Source: Natrialba hulunbeirensis JCM 10989
GTDB taxonomy: Archaea > Halobacteriota > Halobacteria > Halobacteriales > Natrialbaceae
Length of the DNA stretch: 35,851 nucleotides
Reading direction: 5' to 3'
NCBI RefSeq assembly: GCF_000337575.1
Contig: NZ_AOIM01000039.1
Span: 2,325-38,175 of the forward strand
A program made the position numbers and the translations under genes. Positions within the stretch are counted from its first letter, which is position 1. Every line of letters begins with the position of its first letter. Shown here in pieces: positions 10,746 to 17,807 of the stretch. Under the pieces are notes generated by a model that saw nothing but the letters and a program-made list of their open reading frames with translations, made no database searches and was not told where the DNA came from.

Positions 10746-13700
10746 TCACAATCCATCGATCTGGAACGCATCCAGAGACGGTGACTCGTCCTCGCCCTCG
10801 GAACAGCCGAGCGACCGATGCGGACAGAACTGACAGTGCGGCCCCGGTGTCGCGTTCGCGAACGACGAACTGTCCGCTGCCGACAGGTCCTCGAGTACCG
10901 ACTCCCACAGCGTGGCCAGTTCGTCGACCGAGAAGAGCTGGACTGCTGGTCCGGCGTCACCGACGTAGACGTAGCCGGCGTGGCTGATCGGCTCGTCGAA
11001 GCGGTCCCGACAGGCGCGGACGTAGAGCTCGAGTTGGTGGCTCGTCTCGAGTTCCTTCTGGGCCTGGCTTGTCTTGTAGTCCAGTACGACGAGGCCACCG
11101 TCTGGGTGGCGGCGAACGCTGTCGACGTAGCCGGTTACGTCGCCCTCGATAGCCGCGATGCCGTCGTCATCGTCGTCCACAGCCGTGATGTCGCCGTCCA
11201 CCTCCGCAATCTCGTCGCCATCGACAGCAATCGGCACCTCGGCTCCGACCGCCGGCCACTCCGGCACGTCGGTCTCGAAGTAGCGGTCGATGCACTCGAG
11301 TGCTGGCTCCAGCGCGTTCGTCAGGTCGCGGCTGCGGGCAACCCACTCGCAGGCGTCGCGCCACTCGGTTTTGCTGTCGTAGCCGCGCCAGTAGGCGAGT
11401 TCGGCGACGTCGTGGAAGAGCGAACCCACGTCGGCTTGCGTCACTTCTGCTGACCCCCCGGTAGCGGGGGTTGGGTCGGGGAACGCATCCACCACGTGAT
11501 CGAGGACGTGCTTTCGCTCGCAGTTGCGGACGGACTCGAGTGCGGTGTGGCTGTGCTGGCGGGCGAGTTCGACGTCGACGCTGGTGCCGAGGGGGGCGTC
11601 GGCGAAGCGGGCGGTGTTCGAATTTAAGGCACTGTCGCCATCAGCGAGCGTCCCGGCGACGACCCTGTCGGCGAACTCGAGTACCGTCTCGAGCGCTTCG
11701 TCGGTCGAGACCTCGGTCTGGTAGTACGTGATCGTCCCTGGGTCCTCGTCGACGCCGCGGTTGACGGCGTCCGTGTAGTCCCGGACGGCGTCGGGTGTGT
11801 CGGCCGCAATCTCGTCGTAGCTATCCATGAGGGCGTCCCAGACGGGGAACCGTGGTCCCTCGGCGGACCAGTGGATCGGCGTCTCGCTACGCTCGCCGGG
11901 CAGGTGCTCGTCCAGCATGTCGGCACCGGGGCCCTGCTCCTCGACGTCGTTACCGAAGAGGAACAGGTGCTCCTTCGCTCGGGTGAGTGCGACGTGGAGG
12001 ACGCGCCACTCCTCTGCGATCTGGTCGTCGCTGCAGTCGGCCCGCAGGGGATCGGCCAGTTCACCCTGCACGTCGTCGACGAGCACATCGTAGCGGTAGA
12101 GATCTCGCTGGTAGTTCGCGAGGGTGATATGGCCGAACTCGGATTCGGTGAGGAACGGCAGCAGAACGGTGTCGAAGTCGAGCCCCTTCGCCTGGTGGAT
12201 GGTCATGACGTCGACGGCATTCTCGGACTGCGAGCCGGGGCTGGTCGCCGTTTCGTCGTCGGCCGAGAGCAGGTGGGCCTGGCGCTCCAGGTAGTCGACG
12301 AACGCCGGCGTCAGCTCGGACTGGACAGGGCTGTCGTTGAACGCCTCGATCAGGCGCTCGACGTTGGCGAGGGCGTCCCGGTCGTGTTCCCGGAGGAACC
12401 AGTCGATACGCGTCTCTCGCTTGAAGTGGCGGTAGAGCTCGGAGATCGAGTGAGTGTCCGAGACCGAGCGAAGCGTGTCGTAGTCCGTGAGTGCCTCGCG
12501 AACACGGTCGGGACAGCGAAATTCGGCGGCCGGCTCTGCGAGCGCGTCGTACCCCGCCGGAACGGTCTCACCGGCTCGCAGCAATGTATCCACATCGGCC
12601 TCGGGGACGCGATAGAGATGCAGGAGGACGCGCTGCCAGCTCACGTCGTCGCCGGGTTCGATGAGAACCCGGAAGTACGACAGCACCGTCCGCACGCCGT
12701 GGCCGAGCTCGCCAGAGGCGTCACTCGACAGAGTGTAGGGAATGCTGTCTCGATCCAGCTGGGCCGCGATATCGCGGGCGTTCTGATTCTGGCGGACGAG
12801 CACCGCGATATCCTCGAGTTTGCGCTCTGGAACGTCCTCGAATCGACCCGTGAGGAGGTGTGAAATCGTCGTGCTCACCTGCGCCGGCGTGCGCTCGCCC
12901 TCGCTGTCGACTGTGACGACGCTGGGCGGGTTCGGCTCCTTGTACGCCTCGATTTCGTTCTTTTCGGGATCGAGATTCGTCGCCAGATCGAGAATCGGCT
13001 GGCGCGACCGGAAGTTCAGGTCCAGACCGATCTCCTCGAACGACTCGGGCAGTTTCGACATGTTCTCGGGGTCCTGCCCGCGCCACTCGTGGATGGCCTG
13101 ATCGCTGTCGCCGACGACCATGATGTCGAGCCCGTCGCGCAGTTCCTCGACCAACTCGAGTTGGGACTCGTCCGTGTCCTGGAACTCGTCGCAGTAGACG
13201 GCGTCCCACTCGGCGAGGATGTCGTCGCGGACCTGCTCGTCACGAAGCAGGTCGACGGTCCGGTGGATCAGTTCGTCGTAGTCGAAGGCGTTGCGCTCGT
13301 CCAGCGCCTCGAGATAGGCCTCGTACGCGCCGACGAACGCCCGCGCCCGCCGGAGCATGTGGACGTAGTTCGACAGTCTCCCCATCGGTGTCTGCGTGAT
13401 CGAGGTCAGTGGCCCGCACTCGCCCTCGAACATCGCCTCGGGGAGCCGAAACGCCTGCCACTCGAGTTCGGATTCAGTCCGGAGGTGGTCGGCCATGTTC
13501 TCGGCCGTTTCGGCCATTGCTTCGAGATGGGCGCTGACGGCGGAGTGAACCCGACCGTCGCCGTCGAACTGGCGGGCTTTCGCGCGGTAGACTCGCGGCA
13601 GGCGGTCACAGCGGTCGGCGAGCTCTTCGTCTTCCCACATAATGCCGTTCGCGTCGACGTTGATGACCTGATGGGCCATCTCTTCGAGGTCGGTGACGAG

Positions 13701-14339
13701 ACCGAGCAGATCTCGCAGGTCCTCGTCGCTGGGGAGATACGAGCGAATATCGGCCGGGGTGACGGCCTCGCGGCGCATCGCCTCGATGAACGAGGTGAGC
13801 GCGGAGAGCGTCTGGTCGCTCGTGCCGCCGGCGGCGGGCGAGCCGGCTGCGACGAACGAGAAGTCGACCGCCTCGTAGACGGACTCGATCAGCTGCGGAC
13901 GGTCTTCCTCGGTGACGAGGTCGAACTCGGGCGAGACGCCGACGTGGTAGGCGTACTCGGTCAGAAGCGTCGAGCTGAACGAGTGGTAGGTGTAGACGTC
14001 GATATCGAAGGCGACCTGCGGACCGAGCGCTTCGCGGAGTTTCTCCTGAATCGTGTGGGCGGCCTCGTTCGCGAAGGTGAGCACCAGCAGGCGGTTAGGC
14101 GCAACGTCGCGCGCCTCGATTTCGGCCTGCAGGCGCTTGACCATCGTCGTCGTCTTGCCGGAGCCGGCGACGGCCTCGACGGTGTGTGCGCCGCCGGTCG
14201 CGTCGATGACGGCCGGCTGGTTGCCCTTTGGCTCGAGAGCTGCGGCGTCGGGTTCGGCGTCCGTCTCACTGGTCGGTGCGACAGCGTCCGCGGTATCAGT
14301 CGTTGTCTCACGCTCACTCATTGTCTCACGCTCAGTCAT
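10746..14339 (-). CDS. AddA-like UvrD-family helicase with PD-(D/E)XK nuclease and Cys cluster
   Basis: This 1197-aa protein has all SF1 (UvrD/Rep) motifs. Walker A is AVAGSGKT (56-63), and motif II is CDEFQDTDESQ. Motif III is VVGDSDQAIHEWRG, and motif IV is LNFRSRQPI. Motif V is MTIHQAKGLDFDTV, and motif VI is LHVALTRAKEHL. The C-terminus is a RecB-type nuclease: GSLFHDVAELA, GYVDSV and an intact VVLDYKTSQ (DYK near 1087-1089). Cys near 940 (RNCERKH) plus CQFCPHRSLGC (1169-1179) form a four-Cys arrangement like AddB/Cas4 Fe-S nucleases. This points to processing of double-strand breaks for recombination. ATG 14339 overlaps the upstream stop by 8 nt. An alternative ATG lies six codons in. 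The first ~35 residues are a disordered acidic leader. Confidence 0.88.
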   Translation of the reverse strand: MTERETMSERETTTDTADAVAPTSETDAEPDAAALEPKGNQPAVIDATGGAHTVEAVAGSGKTTTMVKRLQAEIEARDVAPNRLLVLTFANEAAHTIQEKLREALGPQVAFDIDVYTYHSFSSTLLTEYAYHVGVSPEFDLVTEEDRPQLIESVYEAVDFSFVAAGSPAAGGTSDQTLSALTSFIEAMRREAVTPADIRSYLPSDEDLRDLLGLVTDLEEMAHQVINVDANGIMWEDEELADRCDRLPRVYRAKARQFDGDGRVHSAVSAHLEAMAETAENMADHLRTESELEWQAFRLPEAMFEGECGPLTSITQTPMGRLSNYVHMLRRARAFVGAYEAYLEALDERNAFDYDELIHRTVDLLRDEQVRDDILAEWDAVYCDEFQDTDESQLELVEELRDGLDIMVVGDSDQAIHEWRGQDPENMSKLPESFEEIGLDLNFRSRQPILDLATNLDPEKNEIEAYKEPNPPSVVTVDSEGERTPAQVSTTISHLLTGRFEDVPERKLEDIAVLVRQNQNARDIAAQLDRDSIPYTLSSDASGELGHGVRTVLSYFRVLIEPGDDVSWQRVLLHLYRVPEADVDTLLRAGETVPAGYDALAEPAAEFRCPDRVREALTDYDTLRSVSDTHSISELYRHFKRETRIDWFLREHDRDALANVERLIEAFNDSPVQSELTPAFVDYLERQAHLLSADDETATSPGSQSENAVDVMTIHQAKGLDFDTVLLPFLTESEFGHITLANYQRDLYRYDVLVDDVQGELADPLRADCSDDQIAEEWRVLHVALTRAKEHLFLFGNDVEEQGPGADMLDEHLPGERSETPIHWSAEGPRFPVWDALMDSYDEIAADTPDAVRDYTDAVNRGVDEDPGTITYYQTEVSTDEALETVLEFADRVVAGTLADGDSALNSNTARFADAPLGTSVDVELARQHSHTALESVRNCERKHVLDHVVDAFPDPTPATGGSAEVTQADVGSLFHDVAELAYWRGYDSKTEWRDACEWVARSRDLTNALEPALECIDRYFETDVPEWPAVGAEVPIAVDGDEIAEVDGDITAVDDDDDGIAAIEGDVTGYVDSVRRHPDGGLVVLDYKTSQAQKELETSHQLELYVRACRDRFDEPISHAGYVYVGDAGPAVQLFSVDELATLWESVLEDLSAADSSSFANATPGPHCQFCPHRSLGCSEGEDESPSLDAFQIDGL

Positions 14340-15342
14340 CGATCTCACCTCGCCCACCACACTCACCGCGAGTCGGCTCCCGATCGACAAACGCGAGCTC
14401 GGCACCCATCCGATCGGGACAGGCGTCCTGATAGGCGCAGTACTGGCAGGCTGAGTCGATGATCTTCTCGAACCGCCACGCTCGCGGGTCGGTTTTCCCG
14501 TCGCCAATTGCTGTGGCTCGCTCCTCGATCAGGTCCACGAGATCCCGCGTCTCCTCTTCGAAGGCATCCTCGAAGTGCCGTTGCTCCACGTCGACACGCA
14601 CGCCCGACTCGGACTCGTAGGCCGGCCGGCTCTCAGCCAGCGGCGCGACGTAAGCGAAGTCACAGGGCAGATCGAAGCCGTACTCGGCCTTCAGGCCCCG
14701 AATCGCAACGCCGGCTCTGACGAAGCTACCGATCTGTTGCGGGTAGTACGACTGGCCATCCACGAACTCCCGGACGTGCGTGTCAGACCAGCTCACCTGC
14801 AACACGCCGTGTAGCGTCGGGACGTACCTGATGCCGAGATAGCCCCTGTCGCGCTCGACCACGGCGTCAACGGTCGCCTCGTACCGGATACCGTCGCGCT
14901 CGTAGCTGACCACGCTATCCGCCTCGACCAGCCGCTCGGCGTGCTCGTGTCCGCCGTTCGCGAAGTACGCCTCGACTGCAGCCGCCAGCGCGTCTGCATC
15001 GTACTGCTCCTGTGCGTCTGCAATGTACGGCTGCCGGTCGCCGGCGCTGGCCTGTCGCCACTCGTGATCGAGCCACTCGAGTGCGGCCTCGACACGCCCG
15101 TCCTCCGTTCCTGCGTCTGATCGGAGCCCAGCGATGATCGACCGCCGGAGGAGTTGCCGACGACGGTCACGAACCCGGTCCGTACTCGTCTCGCGCGCCG
15201 AGAGCGGGCGTTCGAACGCGAACTCGTACTGGCGCGGGCAGACGATGTGCGTCGCGAGCGCGTCGGCGGTGACGACGGGCTGGTCCGCTTGCGGATCCGA
15301 CTCGCCATCTCGCTCACTCTCAACAGACGGGGGCGGCGTCAT
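14332..15342 (-). CDS. AddB C-terminal-like Fe-S protein with degenerate PD-(D/E)XK domain
   Basis: This 336-aa protein has Cys35 (IVCPRQYEF) and a C-terminal C-x2-C-x5-C (299, 302, 308; CQYCAYQDAC). This is the four-Cys Fe-S staple of AddB, Cas4 and Dna2 nucleases. Between them the nuclease core is recognisable (YEATVDAVVERDRGYLGIRYVP, about 154-175). Where active enzymes have D-Y-K this one has R172-Y-V174, so the metal- and water-positioning acid and lysine are missing. I infer a DNA-end-binding, non-cleaving subunit. It overlaps the upstream helicase-fold gene by 4 nt (ATGA) and the downstream AddA-like gene by 8 nt. Together with the 822-aa protein it corresponds to a split AddB. Confidence 0.72.
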   Translation of the reverse strand: MTPPPSVESERDGESDPQADQPVVTADALATHIVCPRQYEFAFERPLSARETSTDRVRDRRRQLLRRSIIAGLRSDAGTEDGRVEAALEWLDHEWRQASAGDRQPYIADAQEQYDADALAAAVEAYFANGGHEHAERLVEADSVVSYERDGIRYEATVDAVVERDRGYLGIRYVPTLHGVLQVSWSDTHVREFVDGQSYYPQQIGSFVRAGVAIRGLKAEYGFDLPCDFAYVAPLAESRPAYESESGVRVDVEQRHFEDAFEEETRDLVDLIEERATAIGDGKTDPRAWRFEKIIDSACQYCAYQDACPDRMGAELAFVDREPTRGECGGRGEIDD

Positions 15343-17807
15343 CGCGTCTCACCTCCGCCGTTTCCGCTCCGTCCATGTTCGTCCGCTCGCCCGCTCTCGC
15401 CACTCGCCGGCCGAATCGCCCCTCTCGCCAGATCGAACTGCGTCTCGACCGCCCGCTCGAATCGCGGGTCCACGTCATCGCTCTCCTCGAGTACCCGCTG
15501 GATCGCGGCCAGCGTTTCTTCGGTGGACTCGAGTGCGACCTCGCCGCCGGTGCTGGCTTCGGCCTGGACCGTCTCGAGGGCGTTCCAGGGCTGGGACAGG
15601 ATTTCGGCGGAGGCGCTGCCGAGGGTGTAGAGGTCGCGCGGCGGGATGGTCTCGTCCTCGTCCTCGCCGTCGCCGTCGCCATCGGCATCACTTTCGCCCT
15701 CGCTGTCGCCCACTCCGCCACCGCCGAGCGTCGACAGCGAGAGCGCGGGATGTGGGTGTTCATCAATTGCGTGGAGATAGCGCGAGCGGTGTTGGAAGCG
15801 GCCGACCGAGCCGTCCGTCTGGCGGTAAGTACAGAAATAGAGGTACTCCTCGGCAGCGCGCGCCCCGATCGCGAGCTGGCGGCGCGTCCGTTCGGCGTGA
15901 TAGCGTTCGAACGCGTTGTCCGTGATCTCGTCGGCGTCGACGGTCGCGTACGTCTCCGCGACGGCCTCCGGACTCGGATTCGTGACGGCCGGGTAGCCGT
16001 CCATCCGTTTGATCCAGGCGGTCGGAAAAAGCGGCGAGAGCGGTTCACTTCCCGGGTACTCGCCGTCGACGACGTTGAGCAGGAAGACGGCGGACCGGCT
16101 ATCGTGTTTCACGAGCCCCACGTCACCGACGGTGACACCACCTTCGGGGACGGCGACCTCGGCGGTATGAGCGTAGGGCGCGTCGTAGGTGATCGCCCGC
16201 TCGAGCATGGTGACGAACTGGATCCAGTCGCCCGCGAGGATATCCTGTTCGTCGACGAACTCGGCAATCGAGAGGAGTCGGGAGACGTTTCGGAACTGCT
16301 CTCTGGCGTCGATCGGGTCGGCGTCCTCGGCGATCCGTCGTTTGAGGTTCGTCGTGACGATCCAGCGCTTCAGACTCTTCGAAACCGAGTTCCTGACGAC
16401 ACAGCGCTGGACGAGGTCCTCGGTGAGATCTGGAATTCGCGCCGCGAGCAGGTCGTAGGCCCGCTCGCGGTCGTCGATGTGGTACTGGGCGAGCGCGTGC
16501 AGTTCCCGGACCGCGAGGTCCTGTTCGAGGCCGTTGACGCCCGCTGAGGCCGTCGGCACGCCGGCGTGCTGGAGGACTCTGCGAACGCGCGGCGCGGGGT
16601 TTCCGATGGATCGGAGCAGGACGGCTACGTCCTCGTATTCGAACCCGTGCTCCTGTCGGAGATACTCGATTTCGTTCGCGACGGTCTCGACTTGCTGGTC
16701 GAGCGTGGGTTCGCTGATCACGCGCGCAGCAGTGGTTGAATCGTGGCTTTCCATTTCTGCAGGCTCGCCGTTCTCTCCCCGGGGAGTCAGCCGCCCGGTC
16801 GCCAGAAACGCGCCGAACGGCTGCCCGACTCGTTCCGGTTCGGATACGGCAGTCGGCTGTGCTGCTGCCGTTCCCCCATCCGAGGCAACACCGGGTATCG
16901 CGTCAATATCTCGCTCTCCTGCCCCGTCAGCGGTGTGATCGACGATCTCGAGTTCGTCCGCGAACCGCCGAACCGATCCCGCCTCGGTCTTCGTCCGCTC
17001 GATACTCGCGTGCACCTCGGCGACACAGATCAGGTCGACGTTCCGGGTGAGCGTGCGCAGGTACTCCCGGTCGAGGTCGCCACACTCCTCGTACTCGACC
17101 ACGAGCACCGCGTCGAACTCGCGCTCGATCCGCTCGCGAATCGCCTCGCGCTCGAGTGCCGCGATCGCGCGTTCGATCGTCTGGGCCTGCTCGGCAAGGT
17201 TGCGCTCGGCGAGGTGGTCGTGGAAGGAGGCGTTGACGTCGGCCAGCTCTCGGAGGTAGTCGTCGTAGTCGTGACCGTCGTCTGTGTCGGCGTCGTCGCT
17301 CTCACTGGCATCATCACTCTCGGTGTCCGCAGCCCCATCGGCATCCACACCGAACCCACCGTTCCACGTAGCATCCAACAACAACTGCCCCACGTCCCGA
17401 CCGAACGAATCGTGCTCGCTCGCCCGCTCGAAGTACGACGACCAGTCGTAGCCATCGAGCACCCGCGCGAGAAACTCGATCCGCTCCTCGTAACTGAGTC
17501 GGGTCAACTCCGGTTCTGCCTCCTCCACGACCGCCGTCGCGTGCCGGGGCAACGACTTCACGTTCGGCCGCCCTTCGAGCCCGACTTCCTCGCGCAACGA
17601 CGCCGCAAACTCGTCGATCGACGTCGGCAAGCGCTTGAGCACCAGGACGTTCCGCGGGTCACCAGCGACTGCGTCGTGATCGAGGGTACTCGAGTAGATT
17701 TCTGCGACACGCGCGGCGAGCGAGCCGCCGCCGAAGGGGAGGATGTGGAGCGTGCCGGTGAGGGGAGGGGCTGCTGTGTCTGAAGCGGGTGGTTGAGACT
17801 GAGACAT
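15339..17807 (-). CDS. AddB N-terminal-like, helicase-fold protein lacking Walker A
   Basis: This 822-aa protein resembles the helicase part of AddB. The N-terminal loop reads ILPFGGGSLAARVAEIY (22-38): the P-loop shape is present but the GKT/GKS is lost, so ATP binding is unlikely. Later segments match SF1-like landmarks: FDAVLVVEYEECGDLDREYL, FEYEDVAVLLRS, VGLVKHDSRSAVFLLNVVDGEYPG (motif V-like), and RTRRQLAIGARAAEEYLYF (motif VI-like). An acidic low-complexity insert (near 155-190) and a DGDGDGEDEDE linker interrupt it. It is first in the operon and is coupled to the Fe-S gene by a 4-nt overlap. The probable role is a scaffold or DNA-recognition subunit, analogous to the Chi-scanning part of AddB, for the AddA-like motor. 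Confidence 0.72.
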   Translation of the reverse strand: MSQSQPPASDTAAPPLTGTLHILPFGGGSLAARVAEIYSSTLDHDAVAGDPRNVLVLKRLPTSIDEFAASLREEVGLEGRPNVKSLPRHATAVVEEAEPELTRLSYEERIEFLARVLDGYDWSSYFERASEHDSFGRDVGQLLLDATWNGGFGVDADGAADTESDDASESDDADTDDGHDYDDYLRELADVNASFHDHLAERNLAEQAQTIERAIAALEREAIRERIEREFDAVLVVEYEECGDLDREYLRTLTRNVDLICVAEVHASIERTKTEAGSVRRFADELEIVDHTADGAGERDIDAIPGVASDGGTAAAQPTAVSEPERVGQPFGAFLATGRLTPRGENGEPAEMESHDSTTAARVISEPTLDQQVETVANEIEYLRQEHGFEYEDVAVLLRSIGNPAPRVRRVLQHAGVPTASAGVNGLEQDLAVRELHALAQYHIDDRERAYDLLAARIPDLTEDLVQRCVVRNSVSKSLKRWIVTTNLKRRIAEDADPIDAREQFRNVSRLLSIAEFVDEQDILAGDWIQFVTMLERAITYDAPYAHTAEVAVPEGGVTVGDVGLVKHDSRSAVFLLNVVDGEYPGSEPLSPLFPTAWIKRMDGYPAVTNPSPEAVAETYATVDADEITDNAFERYHAERTRRQLAIGARAAEEYLYFCTYRQTDGSVGRFQHRSRYLHAIDEHPHPALSLSTLGGGGVGDSEGESDADGDGDGEDEDETIPPRDLYTLGSASAEILSQPWNALETVQAEASTGGEVALESTEETLAAIQRVLEESDDVDPRFERAVETQFDLARGAIRPASGESGRADEHGRSGNGGGETR

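Follow-up and report, generated by a model that had tools for sequence, protein, structure and literature searches.

The enzymes closest to the locus described here are helicase-nucleases that process DNA double-strand ends. In AddAB, of the Bacillus type as well as in archaeal addB-addA gene pairs, an inactive helicase fold and a nuclease fold stand beside a UvrD-family motor fused to a PD-(D/E)XK nuclease, and the genes are adjacent and overlapping. In RecBCD the one working nuclease sits on the RecB motor, and both the helicase fold and the nuclease fold of the partner RecC are dead, the latter as documented in PMC1185551. Both subunits of mycobacterial AdnAB are motor-nuclease fusions with ATPase motifs, and UvrD-Cas4 fusions, in which a UvrD helicase is joined to a Cas4-like nuclease with a CxxC...C cluster, are reported as stand-alone genes, in restriction-modification and in other defence contexts (PMC5704561). 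Reviews of archaeal repair credit Mre11-Rad50 and, in thermophiles, HerA-NurA with end resection (PMC7690668, PMC7776575), and no AddAB-like machine is mentioned in the reviews searched, which covered repair in archaea and in H. volcanii. Archaeal AddAB itself seems little described. Weak matches to the gene 1 profile introduced below led to nine two-gene addB-addA loci (L163-L171) in non-haloarchaeal genomes of the same phylum, where a fused AddB of about 1020-1050 aa is directly followed by an AddA-like gene of about 1080-1140 aa; the proteins scanned from these loci score as AddB and AddA on NCBIfam, below the cut-offs.

Here, we describe a three-gene locus of Natrialba hulunbeirensis JCM 10989 that shares features with each of these systems. 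It lies on the minus strand, as do all features given below, of the window, by which we mean the whole stretch of 35,851 nucleotides that was analysed. We consider it probable that the trio encodes a single-motor, single-nuclease DNA-end machine of the RecBC/AddAB kind with a two-chain AddB-type partner, most likely serving break repair; of the repair role alone we are less sure than of the reading as a whole. Gene 1 (15339..17807, 822 aa) encodes an AddB/AdnA-like subunit with an inactive helicase fold, gene 2 (14332..15342, 336 aa) an AddB/AdnA-like nuclease-fold subunit with an intact cysteine cluster and lost catalytic residues, and gene 3 (10746..14339, 1197 aa from its ATG) a UvrD-family motor with an active-type PD-(D/E)XK nuclease and a cysteine cluster of its own. 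The mechanical open reading frame of gene 3 extends upstream to a TTG at 14507, giving 1253 aa. The open reading frame coordinates and direct reading of the junctions confirm the order and the overlaps given in an earlier note on this DNA, namely a 4-nt start/stop overlap, ATGA, between genes 1 and 2 (15339..15342) and an 8-nt overlap, ATGACTGA, between genes 2 and 3 (14332..14339). Public records annotate the genes singly, as 'DNA helicase UvrD', 'PD-(D/E)XK nuclease family protein' and 'ATP-dependent DNA helicase', and a literature search, with subscription journals mostly outside its scope, found no paper joining the three into one machine.

Pfam finds only weak, sub-threshold UvrD traces and no nuclease domain in protein 1, and NCBIfam a trace of addB_Gpos (14.7 bits against a cut-off of 903.7). 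The Walker A motif GxxxxGK[ST] was sought in the 65-row alignment of the protein 1 family and was absent from every row (65/65), which, together with the UvrD traces, agrees with the earlier description of a helicase fold devoid of this motif. An AlphaFold2 model based on an alignment of 65 rows (pLDDT 77) was aligned by VIA-align with AddB (4cej_B) at Z 18.5 over 625 residues, model residues 17-798 falling on AddB 2-769, and with UvrD at Z 22.4 over only 423 residues; by Foldseek E-values UvrD and AdnB were equal in quality to AddB. Profile-profile comparison favoured intact archaeal AddB (probability 98, E 1.7e-13, score 118) over the trio's own motor, protein 3 (E 9e-10, score 91), and over UvrD-Cas4 fusions (E 8e-10, score 87). 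A segment reading YPG..LT.LFP......M..YP.VT is conserved at about the position of the Chi latch, and equivalents of the latch pair of Bacillus AddB (E129-R629) are not clearly conserved. A search of phage records with protein 1 gave no match.

Protein 2 matches PDDEXK_1 in Pfam at 5e-5, just above the cut-off. A PDB sequence search with its profile returned only chance matches, and the profile is non-discriminating, being equally close to the nuclease domain of protein 3, to UvrD-Cas4 and to AddB. The AlphaFold2 model (pLDDT 80, alignment of 61 rows) has its closest solved fold in the nuclease domain of AdnA (9np6_A, residues 788-1039; Z 16.3, rmsd 3.9, 235 residues, VIA-align), and aligns also with AddB (4ceh_B, residues 785-1137, Z 14.2), with Cas4-type nucleases and with RecC 827-1100 (Z 7.6). 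Since the modelled proteins 1 and 2 cover AddB (2-769 and 785-1137), or AdnA, end to end without overlap, the AddB-type subunit is, judged by these models, split at the helicase/nuclease border into two chains. The earlier note had proposed such a division and had named folds that do not match AddB halves as grounds against it; the two models instead fell on consecutive, complementary residues. AddB is split at every complete haloarchaeal trio locus and fused in other genomes of the phylum. This separates the trio from AddAB and equally from AdnAB, since AdnA is one chain with ATPase motifs, whereas protein 1 has neither a Walker A nor a nuclease domain.

The active site of protein 2 was surveyed in 89 aligned members, 35 live and 54 dead, and turned out to be all-or-nearly-nothing. 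Members of the live class carry the motif III D-x-K, the motif I His, the motif II Asp and the Q...Y, with His changed to Asp in one. In the dead class, to which the window and one contig-end fragment belong, Arg replaces the motif I His in nearly all, DYK has become RYV or similar (R172-Y173-V174 in the window, replacing D-Y-K in the alignment; 14821..14829) and QxxxY is gone; five of the six catalytic positions (H, D, K, Q, Y) are thus lost and the motif II Asp alone is kept. The four cysteines that are the predicted Fe-S ligands, C35 (15238-15240) and the C299-X2-C302-X5-C308 cluster (14419..14448), are invariant, and those checked are kept in the dead and live classes alike. The dead-nuclease lineage covers most Natrialbaceae, the window included, and the live lineage is its sister. 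In both the motor tree and the gene 1 tree the dead members make up a single clade (97 and 99, respectively), and the gene 1 tree requires a single change of nuclease state. The change was likely a loss of catalysis, because the AddB nuclease and the motor's own nuclease are intact.

All three genes are under purifying selection, with dN/dS against the two nearest Natrialba species of 0.13-0.18 for gene 1, 0.14-0.17 for gene 2 and 0.10 for gene 3, and of 0.10-0.34 in other dead-type pairs. The dead protein 2 is a working part, because it is kept under this selection. The single motor and single working nuclease that had been attributed to the machine hold for the window's lineage, but not for the sister lineage with its intact protein 2 nuclease. 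In having its one working nuclease on a RecB-like motor, beside a partner dead in both folds, the window's form resembles RecBCD; it differs in that the dead nuclease is a separate chain that has kept its cysteine cluster, E. coli RecC having no CxxC...C. Neither the operon nor the conserved neighbours that were examined include a gene for a RecD-type 5'-3' motor.

The motor and nuclease of protein 3 are readily recognised by Pfam (UvrD N 2.4e-52, UvrD C 2.2e-31, PDDEXK_1 8e-20). The Walker A, AGSGKT, occupies residues 58-63 (14151..14168, from the alignment), and the PD-(D/E)XK nuclease domain residues 930-1176 (10812..11552, from Pfam and the alignment). Across 85 aligned members the Walker A, Walker B and other helicase motifs are invariant or missing in one gapped row, and the nuclease residues H976, D1073, D1087, K1089, Q1102 and Y1106 are conserved in 84-85, as are C940, C1169, C1172 and C1179, which make up a second predicted Fe-S site (C1169-X2-C1172-X6-C1179 at 10803..10835, with C940). 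On NCBIfam protein 3 reaches 145.5 bits for addA_Gpos against a cut-off of 707.65; this score and that of protein 1 for addB_Gpos lie below their cut-offs, and the trio is therefore not AddAB by curated names alone. In PADLOC the matches of the motor, to GajB and to UvrD helicases related to it, reflect the common helicase fold, so that membership of a defence family was rejected, and protein 2 gave no match.

The view of the trio as an AddAB-like machine is borne out, but the motor is not clearly an AddA. It may descend from AddA, but a CxxCx4-7C cluster is present in UvrD-Cas4 fusions and absent from eight archaeal AddA and from E. coli RecB, and the helicase of protein 3 groups with UvrD and UvrD-Cas4, not with AddA/RecB, in one quick tree with very long branches; the comparison set here consisted of archaeal AddAB and E. 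coli RecB, RecC and UvrD. An AdnAB-like origin is a serious rival to this descent: a UvrD-Cas4-type fusion would have been doubled within archaea, one copy would have lost its ATPase and split, and the likeness to AddB would be convergent. The cysteine cluster and the tree fit such a history, as do the profile of protein 2, which is no nearer to AddB than to protein 3 or UvrD-Cas4, and its closest fold, AdnA. The preference of the protein 1 profile for AddB and the extension of its fold alignment through AddB to residue 769 speak against it, and the motor profile scores for AddA (547) and UvrD-Cas4 (535; archaeal UvrD-Cas4 E 1.3e-65) are nearly equal. We regard such a doubling as quite conceivable, if somewhat less likely than not. 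Whatever its ancestry, the motor differs from UvrD-Cas4 fusions in standing in an operon with two AddB-like genes, and from archaeal AddA in its second cysteine cluster.

In the reading that we prefer, that of a split-AddB machine, the three proteins would form one helicase-nuclease acting on DNA double-strand ends in the manner of AddAB, AdnAB and RecBC. Protein 3 would move 3'-to-5' along one strand and cut with its own nuclease, and protein 1, like AddB and RecC, would act as a splitter or scanner that receives the unwound strand. Protein 2, its catalysis lost and its four-cysteine clamp of the Fe-S type kept, may grip the DNA end and serve as scaffold of the complex; its function would then be structural, as is that of RecC's dead nuclease fold. 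Assembly, the 3'-to-5' polarity, Fe-S binding, any control by Chi and the repair role are all proposed by analogy with the families named. In the window's lineage the genes for the machine form a stable set on the chromosome, with break repair as their most likely function.

The gene 1 profile matches 140 of 391 Halobacteria genomes, 89 of the 101 Natrialbaceae and 51 of the 290 elsewhere. The machine is thus near-universal in Natrialbaceae; being missing from 251 of the 391 Halobacteria, it does not belong to the core repair enzymes of haloarchaea. Dead-type loci lie on chromosomes in a stable setting, with a CBS-domain gene adjacent or near at 37 of 49 and uvrA within about 10 kb at 18 of 49, and this context is suggestive of a repair role. 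SurE, methyltransferase and M24 peptidase genes lie beside the trio of the window, a setting common to other Natrialba. The live-type lineage is sporadic and scattered, and sometimes on plasmids. Gene 1 was found on sixteen haloarchaeal plasmid records, one of them a remnant and the other 15 at 29-35% identity. The remnant, 311 aa long and lacking the other two genes, lies at L172:6928-7863, which matches a Halorubrum lacusprofundi plasmid.

We infer from gene neighbourhoods whether the trio serves repair or the destruction of foreign DNA. A machine that destroys foreign linear DNA, also in the window's lineage, would sit well with the 15 plasmid relatives and with the company kept by the sister lineage, in which 10 of 32 named loci have an Argonaute gene upstream of the trio and nine of these also a PLD nuclease gene, McrB-like genes occur at three loci and BREX-5 genes near the trio on one plasmid. 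None of these genes, however, turned up among the neighbours conserved at dead-type loci, which have conserved surroundings of the housekeeping kind, and one family possesses the machine almost universally; we therefore judge a defence function in the window's lineage rather unlikely. RecBCD/AddAB-type enzymes are capable of both repair and foreign-DNA destruction, and the two readings are therefore not exclusive. Among the neighbours of live-type trios, a 464-aa protein follows the McrB-like gene, in the place of McrC, at L131:7003-8397 and L119:6035-7429, the one from L131 having no Pfam or NCBIfam match, and a 1644-aa protein is encoded upstream on the opposite strand at L127, L128, L130 and L134. 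On the Natrinema zhouii plasmid NZ_CP084884.1 (L189), genes annotated as 'DNA repair exonuclease' and 'AAA family ATPase' lie directly upstream of the trio, an arrangement that suggests coupling with a Mre11-Rad50-like pair.

At the Argonaute-linked loci (L122, L124, L125, L132, L133, L138, L139, L142, L143 and L146, the PLD gene being unseen in L139) the gene order is a divergent AAA-ATPase (AAA-DUF4143), Argonaute, PLD nuclease and trio. The Argonaute, of 888-895 aa, has a PIWI domain (Pfam 4.6e-20) and an N-terminal RPA-like match, and the PLD nuclease has about 706 aa. Across the 391 genomes, all 13 near-full-length relatives of this Argonaute (at least 86% identity) have a gene 1 match as neighbour; in 12 cases the two share a contig and are no more than about 5 kb apart, and in one they fall on contigs with consecutive numbers. 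Argonaute, PLD nuclease and trio are candidates for a single operon of five genes in which the Argonaute has a helicase-nuclease of its own. The 2024 description of a haloarchaeal Argonaute-PLD system (APAP), for which Haloarcula hispanica served as a host, mentions 'a helicase-encoding gene' in the vicinity of some of the operons (PMC11442185). At nine named loci a live-type trio directly follows the Argonaute and PLD genes, which suggests that this helicase gene belongs to a three-gene helicase-nuclease, although the passages of that report consulted here contain no such three-gene unit and the trio of the window is not beside an Argonaute.

The earlier note had regarded the trio as a third end-processing complex beside Mre11-Rad50 and HerA-NurA. 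An additional machine it is, but not simply a third, as the genome also encodes a haloarchaeal Mre11, a NurA-domain protein and a second AddAB-like pair. The NurA-domain protein (L194, contig C35 216697-217647) lies above the Pfam cut-off, and the same model also matches H. volcanii above the cut-off, although one review reports HerA and NurA as absent there; given these matches, the mention of HerA-NurA in the earlier note is not taken to be an error. The second pair (L186:4545-16000, contig C2 10000-26000) consists of two genes with a 4-nt overlap, encoding an AddB-like protein of 906 aa with a DFK motif and a UvrD+PDDEXK protein of 956 aa, and is followed by a Mre11/SbcD-like gene and a Rad50/SbcC-like ATPase gene.

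The trio stays together in relatives, the point at which the earlier note had expected its proposal to fail if wrong. The genes follow one another directly on one strand, in unchanged order, at 34 of 34 loci (in the genomes of 30 relatives, some with two copies), and complete and overlapping at 79 of 80 named haloarchaeal loci, the single exception (L077) being cut by its contig end; because of this constancy the arrangement is not a matter of chance. Natrinema gari (L093) is among the carriers of the trio. That the three proteins act separately and are merely co-transcribed is hard to reconcile with the strict adjacency and overlap of the genes and with proteins 1 and 2 matching consecutive parts of one chain, one-to-one, and we hold it to be very improbable. 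Least probable of all, and rejected here, is that genes 1 and 2, whose frames do overlap, are one protein made by programmed frameshifting or broken by a sequencing error, since every independent genome shows the split and the overlap is either 4 or 8 nt depending on the genome, within Natrialba too, so that the frame of gene 2 relative to gene 1 differs among genomes.

Taken as a single DNA-end machine, then, the trio occurs in two split-AddB forms that are one change apart. Tentatively, one may picture a two-nuclease form taken on by an NgAgo-like Argonaute-PLD defence operon as its dedicated partner in DNA processing, and a one-nuclease form that Natrialbaceae have tamed for the repair of chromosomal breaks, its AddB-side active site lost and its cysteine clamp kept. 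The two-nuclease form could feed guides to the Argonaute or shred its cut targets, as RecBCD reportedly does for CbAgo, an Argonaute that works together with RecBCD in degrading DNA in E. coli (PMC10164581). By this analogy, the linked loci suggest that some Argonautes may carry a RecBCD-like partner of their own where CbAgo borrows one. The dead and live sister forms constitute a natural experiment on the purpose of the second nuclease of AddAB and on the origin of a dead nuclease like that of RecC. End resection in haloarchaea is unsettled, and an AddAB/RecBC-like machine that is near-universal in one of their families would add a bacterial-style route to it.
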